In this document: one piece after another, positions 2,935-29,396 of the stretch
How positions within the stretch are numbered: position 1 is the stretch's first letter
Layout: every line of letters begins with the position of its first letter
Source of the DNA: Corallococcus soli
Lineage (GTDB): Bacteria; Myxococcota; Myxococcia; Myxococcales; Myxococcaceae
DNA length: 64,000 nt
NCBI RefSeq assembly: GCF_014930455.1
Contig: NZ_JAAIYO010000004.1
Span: 434,001 to 498,000, forward strand
Reading direction: 5' to 3'
Translations under genes and position numbers: made by a program
The notes under the pieces: model-generated
The model's database searches: none
Told to the model about the DNA's origin: nothing
The model's input: the letters and a program-made list of their open reading frames with translations, nothing else

Positions 2935-4217
2935 GGTTGGACGCACTGTCACGACTGGTGAGGTTGTCGCTCGCGCGCGAGCGGCGGGGCGCGTTCTTCT
3001 CCGCCTTCGGCGTGGCCATGGGCGTGGGCGCGCTCGTGTTCTTCGTGGGGCTGGGGCTGGGGGTGGGGCAGGTCATCCGCGAGCGCATCTTCCCCACGGA
3101 CTCGCGGCTGGTGGACGTGGTGCCCCCGTCGGTGTCGCTGGGCCTGCTGGGCGGAGGCAAGCTGGACACGGGCGCGGTGGAGCGCCTGCGCGCGCTGCCC
3201 GGCGTGGAGACGGCGTACCGGAAGATGAACGTGCGCGTGCCGGCGGTGACGCGCTACGACGGCACCTTCTTCGGCTCGCGCCTGCGCATGGGCCTGGAGG
3301 TGCTGGCGGTGGGCGTGGACCCCGGCCTCGTGCAGAAGGACGTGGGGCTCCCGGAGGCGAAGGACTTCAAGGACCCCGGCGAGGGCAAGGCCATCCCGGC
3401 GCTCATCTCCACGCGCCTGCTGGAGCTGTACAACAAGACGTTCGCGCCCGCGCGCAAGCTGCCGCAGCTGTCCGCGGAGATGCTCATCGGCTTCGGCTTC
3501 CCGGTGGAGTTCAACCGCTCCTACGTGGCGGCCACGTCGGGCGGTCCCAGTTCCACGCAGCAGGCGCAGGTGGTGGGCGCGTCCGACCGGGCCATGCTCG
3601 CGGGCATCACCATCCCCCTGGACACGGCGGTGCGCATCAACCGCGCGGCGGGCGCGGACGCGGACAGCTACACCGGCGTCACCCTGGTGGCGGCCGACCC
3701 CTCGCACGTCCCGGCGCTGGTGGCGGCGGTGCGGGGCATGGGCTTCGAAATCGATGATCAGGAGCGAAGGCTCGCGGAGAACGCGGGCGCGGCGGTGGCG
3801 CTCACCACGTCCGCGCTGGCGCTGCTGTCCATCCTCATCTGCGTGCTGGCCGCGGTGAACATCACCCACGCCATGTCCGCGTCGGTGCGCGCCCGGGCGA
3901 AGGAGATTGGGGTGATGCAGGCGGTGGGCGCGTCGCGCGCGGACGTGCGCTCCATCGTCCTGGCGGAGGCCAGCGTGGTGGGCCTGCTGGGGGGCGCGGC
4001 GGGGACGGCGGCGGCGCTGGTGCTGGCCTTCGCGGTGGACCGCTTCGCCGCGGGCTACCTGCCCGACTTCCCCTTCAAGCCCGACAGCTTCTTCTCCTTC
4101 CCCGCCACGGTGCTGCTGGGCGGCGTGCTCCTGGGGCTCGTGGCCGCGCTCGCGGGGGCCTGGTTTCCCAGCAGCCGCGCCGCCGCCACGGATCCAGCCA
4201 GGACGCTCGCGGGATGA
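2931..4217 (+). CDS. ABC transporter permease, FtsX/MacB family
   Basis: About 428 residues. GTG 2931 overlaps the stop of the ATPase gene. The layout is the family one: one membrane helix near residues 18-42, a large periplasmic domain (about 45-285), and three helices in the C-terminal third. These enclose the conserved cytoplasmic stretch RAKEIGVMQAVGASRADV, the FtsX coupling segment that contacts the ATPase. A single four-helix permease with its own ATPase fits a LolE/LolC or MacB-like mechanotransmission system. It ends in an ATGA overlap with the next gene. Confidence 0.88.
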
Positions 4218-4978
4218 CGGGCCCGCGCCGCCGGACGTGGGTGTCCAACGCCCTGTGCCTGGGGGCGCTGGGCTGGCTCTACGGCGGCGAGCTGGTGGAC
4301 GCGCTGCGCGTCCGGACCGAGGAGGTCTCCGCGCTGACCTCGTCCCCCTCCGTCGCGCGCGCGGGCGTCGTGCTGGGCCTCTCGGCGGTGGGGCTGGGCG
4401 TGGCGCTCTGGGGGCTGCTGCGCCAGCGGCCGGAGGGCTTCAAGGGCTACCGGCTGCTGCCCATCCTGCTCGTGGGCGCGCTCTTCCTGGACCTGGTGCT
4501 GTCGGAGGGACGCTCCCCGCTGGATGCGCCCGCGCAGGCCGTGGTGGCGCTGCGCGAATTCCAGGAGGCGGCGCGCAAGCACGTCACCCCGGAGGCGGTG
4601 CCCCTGGACGCGCGCGTCCTCCAGCCCCTCGTCGCTGGGCTGGGAACGCCCCCCTACCGGGAGCGCGGCGTCCAGGTGACAGCCTACGCACTCCAGGTGC
4701 GCCGCGACTGCGCGGGCCCCGCCCGTGACGCTTCCGGAGCGCGGCCCGGGACGCTGCTGTACTGTGTCTCCCAGGATGGCAAGCAGGCGTGGGTGACGCT
4801 GGTCGGGCTGCCCGCCGAGGTGCGCTGGGGGACGCCGGCCGTCTTCACCATCGGGGGCGAGCCGCGTTTCAGCCTCGTGCGCGCCGGCTCCCCAGAGGAG
4901 AATGGGGCCGAGCCCGCCATCGAGCTGGAACTCCCCGAAGCGGATTCGGGCGGCGAAGCCACATCCCCTTCGCCGTGA
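4214..4978 (+). CDS. Hypothetical membrane protein, last gene of the ABC operon
   Basis: About 254 residues, starting in an ATGA overlap with the permease gene. Hydrophobic segments lie near residues 11-27, 48-68 and 79-95. A soluble domain follows, with two Cys residues (in RRDCAG and LLYCVS) that could pair outside the membrane, and an acidic tail. I do not recognise the family. The four-gene overlap chain from 584 argues that it works with the ABC transporter. Confidence 0.7.
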   Translation: MTGPRRRTWVSNALCLGALGWLYGGELVDALRVRTEEVSALTSSPSVARAGVVLGLSAVGLGVALWGLLRQRPEGFKGYRLLPILLVGALFLDLVLSEGRSPLDAPAQAVVALREFQEAARKHVTPEAVPLDARVLQPLVAGLGTPPYRERGVQVTAYALQVRRDCAGPARDASGARPGTLLYCVSQDGKQAWVTLVGLPAEVRWGTPAVFTIGGEPRFSLVRAGSPEENGAEPAIELELPEADSGGEATSPSP

Positions 4979-5028
4979 ATCCGGGCTGCTTGCAGGGCAA
5001 GCGGGCGGAAATAGGTCCGCGTGCGCGG

Positions 5029-5058
5029 TTGACCCTGCGGAGCCGCGATCGATAGGCT
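5029..5058 (+). promoter_or_regulatory. Candidate housekeeping promoter of the Ser/Thr kinase gene
   Basis: TTGACC at 5029-5034 (5 of 6 to the -35 consensus), an 18-base spacer, then TAGGCT at 5053-5058. The start codon at 5087 would leave a leader of about 20 bases. The same -10 hexamer occurs before the moxR gene in this window. Confidence 0.5.
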
Positions 5059-5086
5059 CCTCGCAAGGACTCGACCCCCACCCAAA

Positions 5087-20803: not shown

Positions 20804-21598
20804 ATGGAACGACGCACGGACTGGTACGAGCACCCGGAGTACTACGAGGCCATCTTCGGCACGGACACCGTGCGCGAGGCGGACTTCCTCCAGGCGCTGA
20901 GCCAGCGCTACGGCACCGGCGGCAACCAGTGGCTGGAGCCCGCATGCGGCGCGGGCCGCCTGGTGGAGGAGGCCGCGCGCCGGGGCCTGCGCGTCGCGGG
21001 CTACGACTTGTCGGACGCCATGCTCGCGCACGCGCGCAAGCGCCTCACCCCCGCCGAGCGCCGCCGCGTGAAGCTGTCACGGGCGCGCATGGAGGACTTC
21101 TTCGACCCCGGGCTGGAAGGCTGTGTGGACCTGGCCCACACCCTGGTCTCCACCTTCCGCTACCTGGACAGCGAGAAGGCCACGGTGGAGCACCTCACCG
21201 GCACGCGGCGGCTGCTCAAGCCGGACGGCCTCTACGTGCTGGGCTTCCACCTCACCGACTACGCGCGCCCGGGGCCGGAGCACGAGCGCTGGGTGGGCCA
21301 GGTGGGCCCGGACAAGGTCGTCTGCAACACCCACGAGGGCCTGCCGGAGAGGCGCCTGCGCCGCTCGCCCATGCGCAACCGGCTGCGCGTCACCGGTCCC
21401 GGCAAGGACTGGCTCATCGAGACGACGTGGTACTTCCGCACCTACGACGAGCCCCAGGCGAAGCGCCTGTTCCGCAAGGCGGGCCTGCGCGTCGTGGCCA
21501 CGTTCACCTTCGACTACGACCTGGAAGCGCCGGTGGGGCGCGGCAGCAACCGGTTGGATCGCGTCTTCGTGCTCCAGCCGGACACCGCCACGCCCTGA
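20804..21598 (+). CDS. SAM-dependent methyltransferase (class I)
   Basis: About 264 residues. The SAM-binding motif I is WLEPACGAGRLVEEAARRG, followed by the acidic loop GYDLSDAMLAHA. A later strand VLGFHLTDYA fits motif IV. The substrate is not evident. Its tight spacing with the ZIP gene suggests one transcript, but no functional link is clear. Confidence 0.88.
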   Translation: MERRTDWYEHPEYYEAIFGTDTVREADFLQALSQRYGTGGNQWLEPACGAGRLVEEAARRGLRVAGYDLSDAMLAHARKRLTPAERRRVKLSRARMEDFFDPGLEGCVDLAHTLVSTFRYLDSEKATVEHLTGTRRLLKPDGLYVLGFHLTDYARPGPEHERWVGQVGPDKVVCNTHEGLPERRLRRSPMRNRLRVTGPGKDWLIETTWYFRTYDEPQAKRLFRKAGLRVVATFTFDYDLEAPVGRGSNRLDRVFVLQPDTATP

Positions 21599-21699: not shown

Positions 21700-22371
21700 A
21701 TGGAAGCCTCGCCGGCACCGGGGACGCAGGCGCGCGGGGATGGCCGCGAGGCGCGGCTGCTCCTGGGCTTCGACTTCGCCGGCACCTTCGTCTTCGCGGT
21801 GGAGGGCGCCATCGCCGCCATCGCGGGCGGGTTGGATCCGCTGGGCATCCTGGTGCTGTCGTTCACCACGGCGCTGGGCGGCGGCATCCTCCGCGACCTG
21901 CTCATCGGCGCCATTCCGCCCAACGCCATCCGCGACCCGCGCTATGCCCTGGTCGCCTTCGGGGGCGGCGCGACGGTGCTGCTCCTCCACCGCTTCGTGA
22001 GCTTCGTGCCGCCCGCGCTCCTCGTCACGCTGGACGCGGCCGGGCTGTCCCTGTTCGCCATCGCCGGGGCGCGCAAGGCGCTGGACTTCGGCCTGCGCCC
22101 GCTCATGGCCATCCTCATGGCCGCCATCACCGGCGCGGGCGGCGGCACCGTGCGCGACCTCTTCCTGGCCCACGTCCCCACCGTGCTGCGCGCGGACATC
22201 TACGCGGTGGCGGCGCTGTCCGGGGCGCTCGTCATGGTGGTGGGCCAGCGGCTGGGGCTGCCCTCCCGGACCATGGCCTTCGTGGGGGGCGCGGCCTGCT
22301 TCGCCCTGCGCGTCATCAGCGTCTGGCGCGGCTGGAACCTGCCCCACCTCTCCGGCATGGGGAGGGGATGA
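21700..22371 (+). CDS. TRIC/UPF0126 (YicG-like) membrane protein
   Basis: About 223 residues. ATG 21700 was chosen because the conserved family sequence starts about 20 residues later and a TAGCGT hexamer lies just upstream. Seven membrane helices show the internal duplication of the family. The two repeats are marked by GGGILRDLLIG and GGGTVRDLFLA. Bacterial TRIC homologues form trimeric monovalent-cation channels, and some UPF0126 members are linked to glycine uptake. The function here cannot be decided from sequence. Confidence 0.9.
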   Translation: MEASPAPGTQARGDGREARLLLGFDFAGTFVFAVEGAIAAIAGGLDPLGILVLSFTTALGGGILRDLLIGAIPPNAIRDPRYALVAFGGGATVLLLHRFVSFVPPALLVTLDAAGLSLFAIAGARKALDFGLRPLMAILMAAITGAGGGTVRDLFLAHVPTVLRADIYAVAALSGALVMVVGQRLGLPSRTMAFVGGAACFALRVISVWRGWNLPHLSGMGRG

Positions 22372-22402
22372 CCCGGCCCCTTCGTTGGGGGCCCAGGCAC
22401 GT

Positions 22403-22472
22403 GACGCGTCAGGCCCGGAATGGACGCGTCCGCGTTCCGGATGGACGCGTCCGCGTTCTGTCAGGACGCATC
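22403..22472. promoter_or_regulatory. Four palindromic boxes at 20-21 bp spacing (candidate upstream activating sequence)
   Basis: GACGCGTC occurs at 22403, 22423 and 22444, and GACGCATC at 22465. The second and third lie within the 10-bp palindrome GGACGCGTCC and share the flank CGCGTTC. Start-to-start spacing is 20, 21 and 21 bases, two helical turns each, so all boxes face the same side of the DNA. The array ends about 50 bp before the -24 box of a sigma-54 promoter, where enhancer-binding protein sites normally lie. Confidence 0.6.
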
Positions 22473-22522
22473 CGGTGGAGGGGGTTCAGCGGAACTGCCT
22501 GGATTCACACGGCTTCGGCTTC

Positions 22523-22538
22523 TGGCACGACATCCGCA
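22523..22538 (+). promoter_or_regulatory. Candidate sigma-54 (-24/-12) promoter
   Basis: TGGCACG at 22523-22529 is a full -24 element. Ten bases separate its GG from the GC at 22536-22537, the strict sigma-54 spacing. The -12 element is CCGCA instead of TTGCA. The predicted transcript start is near 22549, just before the first hairpin. Confidence 0.6.
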
Positions 22539-22548
22539 AGAGTCTGGC

Positions 22549-22640
22549 GGCACATGCTGGCAACGGCGTGTACCGCATCCGGCTGCACCCGGAGCGCGGA
22601 AGGAGGGGCCGCTCCTTCCGCGCTCTCCATCCTTCATCTC
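22549..22640 (+). ncRNA. Candidate sigma-54-dependent small RNA with three stem-loops
   Basis: From the predicted start, stem 1 pairs ACATGC (22552-22557) with GCGTGT (22566-22571), including one G-U pair. Stem 2 pairs TCCGG (22578-22582) with CCGGA (22589-22593). Stem 3 is a perfect 14-bp hairpin (22592-22625), and stems 2 and 3 compete for two bases. A pyrimidine-rich tail follows. The arrangement of sigma-54 promoter, about 90 nt, three stem-loops and an adjacent enhancer-binding protein gene resembles what I recall of the Pxr developmental sRNA of Myxococcus xanthus. Homology is not shown. It could equally be a structured leader of the activator mRNA. Confidence 0.45.
22592..22625 (+). 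terminator. Perfect 14-bp hairpin, terminator- or attenuator-like
   Basis: GAGCGCGGAAGGAG at 22592-22605 pairs without mismatch with CTCCTTCCGCGCTC at 22612-22625 around a 6-base loop. The downstream sequence is pyrimidine-rich with scattered T but no pure T-run. It could end the candidate sRNA or attenuate read-through into the activator gene. Confidence 0.5.
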
Positions 22641-22716
22641 CGATAGAGTCCGCGTCTGATTTCAGGACGGCTTCGCCGGTCTGCGGTGGCGCGGCATCCG
22701 CACGGAGGCGAAGGGG

Positions 22717-28415: not shown

Positions 28416-29396
28416 TCATTCATTGGCCAGGAACGCCTTCAGCTCCGGGAGCACCCGCTCGGGCCGCTCCAGGTGCGGGCTGTGTCCGCAGTCCACGCGC
28501 AGGACGCGGGCCCGGGGCAGCCGCCGCGCGGCCTCGTCCGCCAGGGTGATGGGCAGGGTCTCCTCGCGCTCACCCCAGACGAGCAGCACCGGCTGCTTCA
28601 CCTCGCCCAGCCGCTCCATGCGGTGGAACACCGGGCCCGTCAGCGGCACCAGCGCGTTGAAGGCCTGCGCCGCCTCCGGACGGCCTCCCCGGACCTCCAG
28701 CAGCTCGTAGCCCAGCGCGCCCAGCCGTGCGCCCAGCGGCGTCGGCGGGGGCGGCAGCATCCGCGCCATCGCCCACGGGCCCAGGTTCCGGGCCAGGCGC
28801 TCCGGCCCCGCGCGGAAGAAGAGGCGCGAGGCGCGCGTCATCTCCGGCCCCAGCCCCATCGCGTCCACCAGCGCCAGCCGCTCCACCTTCACCGTGCCGC
28901 GCAGCGCCAGCTCCAGCGCCACCAGCCCGCCCAGCGAGTGGCCGACCACCGCCACCGGCCCCGGCTCCAGCATCCCCAGGGCCTCCTCCACCGGGTCGGT
29001 GAAGAACCGCACCGCGTCCTCCGCCGAGCGCACGCGCCGCTCCGGCGGGGTGGACTGGCCGAAGCCGGGCAGGTCCAGGGCCAGGACCCGGTGGTGCCGG
29101 GCCAGGGCCGTCAGGTAGGGGAACCAGTGCGTCGCGGACTGGCCCCGCCCGTGCAACCACACCACCGTCGGACGGGGCGGCTCCGGGGCGTCCGCCGGGG
29201 GCCCCCCCTCCAGGATCCGCACCGCGCCGCCCCCGGGCAGCCAGTGGACCTGGGGCACCACGGCGGGGGCCAATTGGGCCAGGAGGGCCGTCTCCACCGG
29301 GCCCACGGGGGGCGTGGCCCCCAGGGCGCCGGGGCGGCTGGCGGCGTCCCAACGGGGGGGGAGGGCAGAACGACGGGGCGGAGGCGGCCGGGACAT
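28416..29396 (-). CDS. Alpha/beta-hydrolase fold protein
   Basis: About 326 residues. After a Pro-rich start the fold shows the oxyanion segment WLHGRGQSATHW, the nucleophile elbow VVGHSLGGL (Ser), an acid in VWGEREETLPITLADEA, and the catalytic His in CGHSPHLERPE. No signal peptide is evident. The substrate is unknown. It is divergent from the moxR operon across 116 bases. Confidence 0.88.
   Translation of the reverse strand: MSRPPPPRRSALPPRWDAASRPGALGATPPVGPVETALLAQLAPAVVPQVHWLPGGGAVRILEGGPPADAPEPPRPTVVWLHGRGQSATHWFPYLTALARHHRVLALDLPGFGQSTPPERRVRSAEDAVRFFTDPVEEALGMLEPGPVAVVGHSLGGLVALELALRGTVKVERLALVDAMGLGPEMTRASRLFFRAGPERLARNLGPWAMARMLPPPPTPLGARLGALGYELLEVRGGRPEAAQAFNALVPLTGPVFHRMERLGEVKQPVLLVWGEREETLPITLADEAARRLPRARVLRVDCGHSPHLERPERVLPELKAFLANE

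Follow-up and report, generated by a model that had tools for sequence, protein, structure and literature searches.

Pxr, a development-blocking small RNA (sRNA), is a gate to multicellular development in myxobacteria, and when the literature was searched and judged by titles and the starts of abstracts it was the sole sigma-54-driven regulatory RNA that we found described for these bacteria. The locus studied here, a non-coding gap (22372-22716) in a 64-kb stretch of Corallococcus soli DNA (the whole stretch analysed, from here on the window), raises the question of whether it holds another RNA of this kind and, if so, whether this is a relative of Pxr, the leader of a neighbouring mRNA or a gene of its own. 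The gap is situated between an ORF with a match to PF03458, ending at 22371, and a gene for a sigma-54 activator (enhancer-binding protein, EBP). The best reading of its sequence is an sRNA of a new sigma-54-dependent family, which probably acts in trans and would be switched on by the neighbouring EBP. No paper on this RNA was recognised among the titles and abstract starts, and as far as found the gene is undescribed.

The predicted transcription unit

When reading the gap (Table 1), a sigma-54 promoter, TGGCACGACATCCGCA, was identified with GG at 22524-22525 and GC at 22536-22537, which agrees with the exact GG-N10-GC match reported in the first-pass annotation of this DNA, and adding twelve bases to the C of the -12 element gives a predicted +1 at 22549, the same transcript start as was proposed there. 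Folding of 22549-22640 gave a minimum free energy (MFE) of -48.2 kcal/mol (z = -4.57; as low in none of 200 shuffles) and three stem-loops: SL1 with an inner stem of 8 bp (22552-22559/22564-22571), SL2 with a weak stem of 3 bp (22575-22577/22584-22586) and SL3, pairing 22591-22605 with 22612-22626, where the perfect 14-bp stem already noticed (22592-22605/22612-22625) is extended by an outer G.U pair. The pyrimidine tail that had been pointed out behind the last stem is present but weak, and a terminator scan of the window called nothing. An Rfam scan of the 64 kb gave no family at its cut-off.

The adjacent sigma-54 activator gene, also part of the earlier description, was borne out by a match of its ORF to the activator domain PF00158 (164 bits). 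Its ATG starts 90 nt after the hairpin, and family, sequence and model all mark the protein as a sigma-54 activator of the AAA+ type; the 50 matches listed by a structure search are sigma-54 activator structures. No receiver domain was matched in Pfam, and the N-terminal 205 residues have, in our own reading, a putative GAF-like look.

Table 1. Positions of the predicted features in the gap and of the gene following it (window coordinates)
Feature	Position	Strand	Basis
Further GACGCGTC copies upstream of the site pair	22403-22430	+	0 expected in shuffles
Activator-type (UAS) site 1, GCGTTC-N5-GGACGC	22432-22448	+	pattern search
Activator-type (UAS) site 2, GCGTTC-N5-GGACGC	22453-22469	+	pattern search
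Sigma-54 promoter (-24/-12), TGGCACGACATCCGCA	22523-22538	+	sequence read; conserved
Predicted start and SL1 (5' hairpin)	22549-22574	+	MFE fold, covariation
Linker with weak, unconserved SL2	22575-22590	+	MFE fold, alignments
SL3, terminal hairpin (core 22596-22621)	22591-22626	+	fold, comparison
Pyrimidine-rich tail, predicted approximate RNA 3' end	22627-22634	+	sequence read; U content compared
Conserved CATCTCCGATAGAGT, candidate -10 region of the EBP's own promoter	22635-22649	+	pattern comparison
Sigma-54 activator (EBP), 573 aa	22717-24438	+	Pfam, sequence, model

Distribution and conservation

A BLAST search with the gap revealed matches in 16 of 39 genomes, namely in all 16 of the genus (its own included) and in none of the 23 others. 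Searching with the EBP protein led to loci in Corallococcus, Myxococcus (M. xanthus included), Pyxidicoccus and Citreicoccus, and 28 distinct hairpin-bearing loci were left after removal of duplicates, every one of them containing the promoter pattern TGGCAY-N7-GCA together with at least two activator-type sites. Conservation beyond close strains had been named earlier as a test of the candidate, and the unit was indeed found well beyond them: a covariance model built from the 16 Corallococcus copies (R1) matched 53 of 96 genomes of the family, in 5 of 26 genera and with one locus per genome. Apart from these loci, R1 responded to the palindromic hairpin on the opposite strand as well, as an echo, and had a weak additional match (31.9 bits) in G094. 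With a second model of wider scope (R2), for which 52 of the 53 copies were used, no further genome was added: of 145 genomes in the order it hit these 53 again (5 of 46 genera); strict filters were used above 40 genomes, and the E-values of the models are rough.

The core of the terminal hairpin (GCGGAAGGAGGGGCCGCTCCTTCCGC, 26 nt including the loop) is identical in all 53 loci, in part because the search models are dominated by SL3, so that homologues with a changed SL3 or otherwise diverged would escape them. GG-N10-GC is likewise kept in 53 of 53, and the fuller pattern TGGC[AG][CT]-N7-GC[AT] in 52, the exception (L192) reading TGGCCC; the variant TGGCGT is found in L223, one of the loci without the EBP gene treated below. 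Across clades the identity was 0.94 in SL3, 0.73 in the promoter and 0.37 in the spacer, and the activator-type sites, which the first-pass annotation did not contain, are with 0.73 among the best conserved parts of the unit.

Relation to the EBP gene

In 45 of the 53 loci the EBP gene lies directly downstream. This speaks for an alternative explanation in which the sigma-54 promoter produces an autoregulated 5' leader for the EBP mRNA and the hairpin is an attenuator or an RNA-stability element, and so does the end of the predicted RNA, since with a poor U-tract and no terminator called in the window read-through into the EBP gene is possible. A further point in its favour is an EBP 74% identical to this one (L227, G040:C1:9298802-9300529), which lacks the sRNA and is immediately preceded by one matching site; by eye a second, imperfect site and a GG-N10-GC motif can be made out there, the scripted promoter pattern found none, and the gene may represent an autoregulated form that does without the RNA.

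The loci outside Corallococcus argue against such a leader. The EBP (86-89% identity) is right downstream in 29 of these 37, whereas the remaining 8 (all seven of g27 and the single one of g28) have no EBP in the 3-kb stretch fetched and nevertheless retain the activator-type sites, the promoter, SL1 and SL3. The U-tract is richer at these 8 loci (a mean of 7.4 U in the 12 positions after SL3, compared with 4.7 at the EBP-linked ones), and in L211, the one of them that was scanned, a terminator was called. All 8 adjoin a homologue of the methyltransferase of the window (20804-21598, Pfam) and 4 face a homologue of the window ORF 28416-29396, hydrolase-like in our own reading, so that the locus is positionally the same and the EBP is a lineage-specific neighbour. 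Being kept at 8 loci without the EBP, the unit looks like a free-standing sRNA gene and not like an EBP leader. Among 13 tested genomes that lack the RNA, 8 hold the methyltransferase, and no site pair with promoter was found within the next 1.5 kb in these.

The region following the hairpin points in the same direction. An extra element, ATCTCCG-nTAnA, is present there at 45 of 45 EBP-linked loci and at none of the 8 EBP-less ones, a restriction that fits a private EBP promoter; in the window the element (CATCTCCGATAGAGT) was not recognised by a sigma-70 scan. The EBP leader is also poorly conserved between clades (identity 0.37). Because of the EBP-less loci the explanation as a leader was largely rejected, and we regard it as unlikely.

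In the 7 EBP-less genomes that were searched an unlinked EBP was found (63-65% identity) in which the C-terminal motif NRNHHK is kept. No activator-type sites were seen upstream of such unlinked genes in the 4 inspected from Stigmatella-type genomes. A record titled Comamonas sp. KCTC 72670 (L051, BNCN01000001.1) also contains the EBP (87% identity), preceded by the unit in full; it is probably a mislabelled myxobacterial assembly.

The hairpins as predicted RNA structures

SL3 could also be a terminator of the usual kind, or act as DNA, as a palindrome to which a protein binds, with the sigma-54 promoter serving something else. Terminators are common, and the hairpin is nearly palindromic DNA that is matched on both strands. 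Terminators, however, conserve structure rather than exact sequence, while here 26 bases, those of the loop included, are identical across the 53 genomes. When analysing the model-fitted alignment (44 distinct rows), 12 of the 15 pairs of SL3 were invariant and two showed double changes from G-C to A-U, one of them with G.U intermediates; in the outermost pair G.U (34 rows) prevails over A-U (8 rows). Over the 53 loci the base of the stem is GAAC/GTTC (24), GAGC/GCTC (18), AAGC/GCTT (8) or GAGC/GTTC (3), the last being a G.U intermediate. Such G.U states, at these 3 loci and in the outermost pair, break the DNA palindrome and keep the RNA pair, and the types of stem base fit RNA pairing better than a DNA palindrome. 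Since SL1, situated between the promoter and SL3, covaries as well, a terminator or a DNA palindrome is considered very unlikely.

The covariation of SL1 was most complete in an alignment of 52 rows fitted to the model (A5; L223 fell below the threshold and was left out), with double changes in 8 of 8 pairs and 95% of the SL1 cells paired. For the whole structure 94.5% of the cells were paired compared with 43-52% when the structure was slid, and its covariation score of 0.320 compares with 0.126 for shuffles and with 0.077 or less for slid versions. As this alignment was fitted to the model, those that were not fitted matter. In an unfitted MAFFT alignment of 11 Myxococcus-type rows (A3) the covariation was matched by 5 of 500 shuffles, and in that of the 8 EBP-less rows (A6) the SL1 pairs were kept in 8/8 with double changes in two pairs. 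Within Corallococcus alone (A1) the SL1 covariation was not significant, 79 of 500 shuffles being as high, and from the unfitted alignment of all 28 loci (A2) SL3 alone was recovered. The part preceding SL3 had a mean folding z of -1.1 over the 28 loci, positive in 6 of them, and at several Myxococcus loci it folds no better than shuffles.

Three consecutive hairpins had been described for the predicted transcript. SL1 and SL3 are backed by the comparison, but stem 2 is not conserved: in the alignment of 52 rows fitted to the model 72% of its cells pair, in 2 rows out of the 15 distinct ones from Corallococcus two of the four pairs are lost, and it was rejected as a conserved feature.

A small-protein mRNA would be suggested by a frame of 30 codons, which in this genome begins with an ATG close to the 5' end. 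This reading is highly improbable and was rejected on the ATG frames over the 53 loci, ATG being the start codon listed: 23 have no ATG in the predicted RNA, the others differ in its position and in the length of the frame, the distance from start to core varies between 45 and 52 without keeping the frame, and the 26-nt core is free of any variation, synonymous or otherwise.

Activator-type sites and promoter spacing

The two activator-type sites follow the general pattern GCGTYC-N5-GRACGC and lie 21 bp apart in all of the first 28 loci, and with the strict pattern at least two sites were found in 52 of the 53 loci, the exception (L217) having 1. The additional copies of GACGCGTC fall in a segment (22400-22428) that is unconserved between clades (identity 0.22). 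Between the nearest site and the promoter Corallococcus and Citreicoccus have a gap of 51-53, almost every Myxococcus-type locus has one of 61-64 and L202 one of 74, and at the EBP-less loci the nearest strict site is located at 61-62, 82-83 or 102. The distance from site to -24 element thus differs between clades by about 11 bp, approximately one helical turn, which is the step size to be expected if an EBP acts by looping the DNA.

The tandem-pair pattern was searched for in 15 genomes of the genus, all of which have it at the RNA locus and most of which have it elsewhere too, and in 9 other genomes, 1 of which contains it; the reversed-pattern control gave 0 in 22 of 24 genomes. That the EBP reads these sites is supported by their proximity and conservation and by the motif NRNHHK in the unlinked EBPs. 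Against it stand the occurrence of the pair at other places and, in Stigmatella-type genomes, a nearest EBP of no more than 63-65% identity that is unlinked and, in the 4 inspected, lacks such sites upstream.

Sites followed by a promoter (gap 50-80) occur in this genome at the RNA locus and at one other place (L141, G000:C17:44500-50500, at 3070-3190), where a site pair and a sigma-54 promoter precede a lipoprotein-like ORF; inspection by eye of the matches listed for the 15 other genus genomes showed no sequence like it. In L143 (G010) an ORF is preceded by a single site and a sigma-54 motif. A recurring arrangement, GCGTY-N7-RACGC ... GACGCGG ... TGGCAY, ahead of a sigma-54-like site was seen at G004:C74:5999, G010:C1:2722265, G008:C405:5947, G003:C338:1938, G009:C549:2606 and G007:C164:10480, which within Corallococcus seem to make up a single family. 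When further EBP targets were sought by the site pattern, dense GCGT...ACGC arrays turned up in L138, which overlap a long ORF (3236-5068, minus strand) and were rejected as enhancers; similar arrays were located in L139, L140 and L144.

Proposed mechanism

Comparison of the genomes established the conservation of the promoter, the activator-type sites and both hairpins, and the independence of this unit from the EBP gene, and the segment from 22549 to about 22634 is very probably a real and conserved sRNA gene. From this we infer its transcription with the predicted start and end, the EBP as its activator and base-pairing with mRNAs. The paired sites at 22432-22469 would be bound by the EBP, which would contact sigma-54 RNA polymerase at the promoter (22523-22538) and start the RNA at about 22549. 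The RNA would then fold into SL1, with its structure kept and its sequence drifting, a short linker and the very stable SL3, which would end the transcript. As the sequence of SL3 is frozen including the loop, this hairpin probably has a further task, which could be to bind a protein, to stabilise the RNA or to contact a target. The EBP would mainly be transcribed from its own promoter 3' of the hairpin, and where the U-tract is weak some transcripts of the sigma-54 promoter could run on into the gene and provide positive feedback.

Taken as a whole, a discrete trans-acting non-coding RNA of about 80-90 nt, switched by the EBP and carrying a frozen terminal hairpin, is likely to be the best explanation of the locus. 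For its parts, activation of the sRNA by this EBP or by the unlinked relatives is judged quite likely and action in trans on mRNAs reasonably likely, although no target was found, and a developmental role is a possibility put forward with some doubt. The sRNA, usually adjoining the gene of a receiver-less activator, offers a defined candidate activator site, and the frozen SL3 could be used as bait for RNA-binding proteins of bacteria lacking Hfq.

Comparison with Pxr and other sRNA systems

The Qrr sRNAs of Vibrio are sigma-54-dependent and driven by the EBP LuxO, a phosphorylated response regulator, with qrr1 located beside luxO, and they act together with Hfq. In enterobacteria GlmY and GlmZ have a sigma-54-type promoter and the response regulator GlrR as activator, the EBP gene being found near glmY. 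The RNA proposed here has no Rfam match to these families in the window; it is like Qrr as a predicted sigma-54- and EBP-driven sRNA and like GlmY/GlmZ in its sigma-54-type promoter and nearby EBP gene.

Kinship with Pxr had been suspected in the first-pass annotation, and a similar promoter type and size, a terminal hairpin and an EBP nearby would all suit a diverged member or a paralogue. The Rfam model RF01812, however, finds pxr at a separate place in the same genome (G000:C1:1113159-1113265; 113.2 bits, cut-off 80) and matches a locus other than that of this RNA in 12 of 12 genomes tested, while in the gap it gave no match even at E<=10. In the reverse test R1, run without filters over the pxr locus, reached 10.0 bits antisense and 8.0 sense, which is background, unrelated places in the same 7 kb reaching 12.7. 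Pxr membership was rejected on these grounds; a relationship is refuted at the level of detectable homology and is exceedingly improbable. The Pxr-like layout did not hold either, the EBP here being downstream, without a receiver match and absent from 8 of the 53 loci; according to the Pxr papers (PMC5684412, PMC5568312) it is pxr that lies downstream of its regulator gene, pxrR/nla19, which codes for a response regulator of the NtrC type and has pxrK as its partner kinase.

M. xanthus is described as being without an hfq homologue (PMC5684412). A tentative and rather unlikely reading is that SL3 is the recognition element of an RNA-binding protein that substitutes for Hfq in myxobacteria, and that the RNA is a second sigma-54 checkpoint alongside Pxr. 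A variant of this is suggested by the loop of Pxr, which contains a run of seven C in 12 of 12 pxr copies, and by the linker of the Stigmatella-type (g27) RNAs L208, L209, L211, L217, L218, L222 and L223, which contains a complementary run of seven G; L189 (g28) has five G, and L001 and L196, the remaining copies that were checked by script, have no run of at least five. Cofolding energies with Pxr ranged from -0.2 to -10.6 with no pattern favouring the G7 genomes, so that the Stigmatella-type RNA as a Pxr antagonist, acting through these runs, stays a speculation weaker than the one on an Hfq substitute. The direct binding targets of Pxr itself are described as not established, with pxrA as a predicted target (PMC11928866).

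Going by the descriptions of Pxr in PMC5684412 and PMC5568312, the two systems share the myxobacterial host, a predicted sigma-54 promoter with an upstream enhancer region and an adjacent EBP gene, and the RNAs are similar in size (about 100 nt for Pxr) and in having a first stem-loop and a stable terminal one. They differ in the upstream neighbour, which here is the PF03458 protein and not pxrR, and in the pattern of conservation: in Pxr, according to the same papers, SL1 and SL2 are conserved and SL3 is more variable, an 8-bp segment of it being required for Pxr accumulation (PMC5684412), whereas here SL3 is frozen and SL1 is drifting. The locus would thus provide a second, unrelated RNA of the promoter class of Pxr, present in M. 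xanthus and directly testable as a new regulator.
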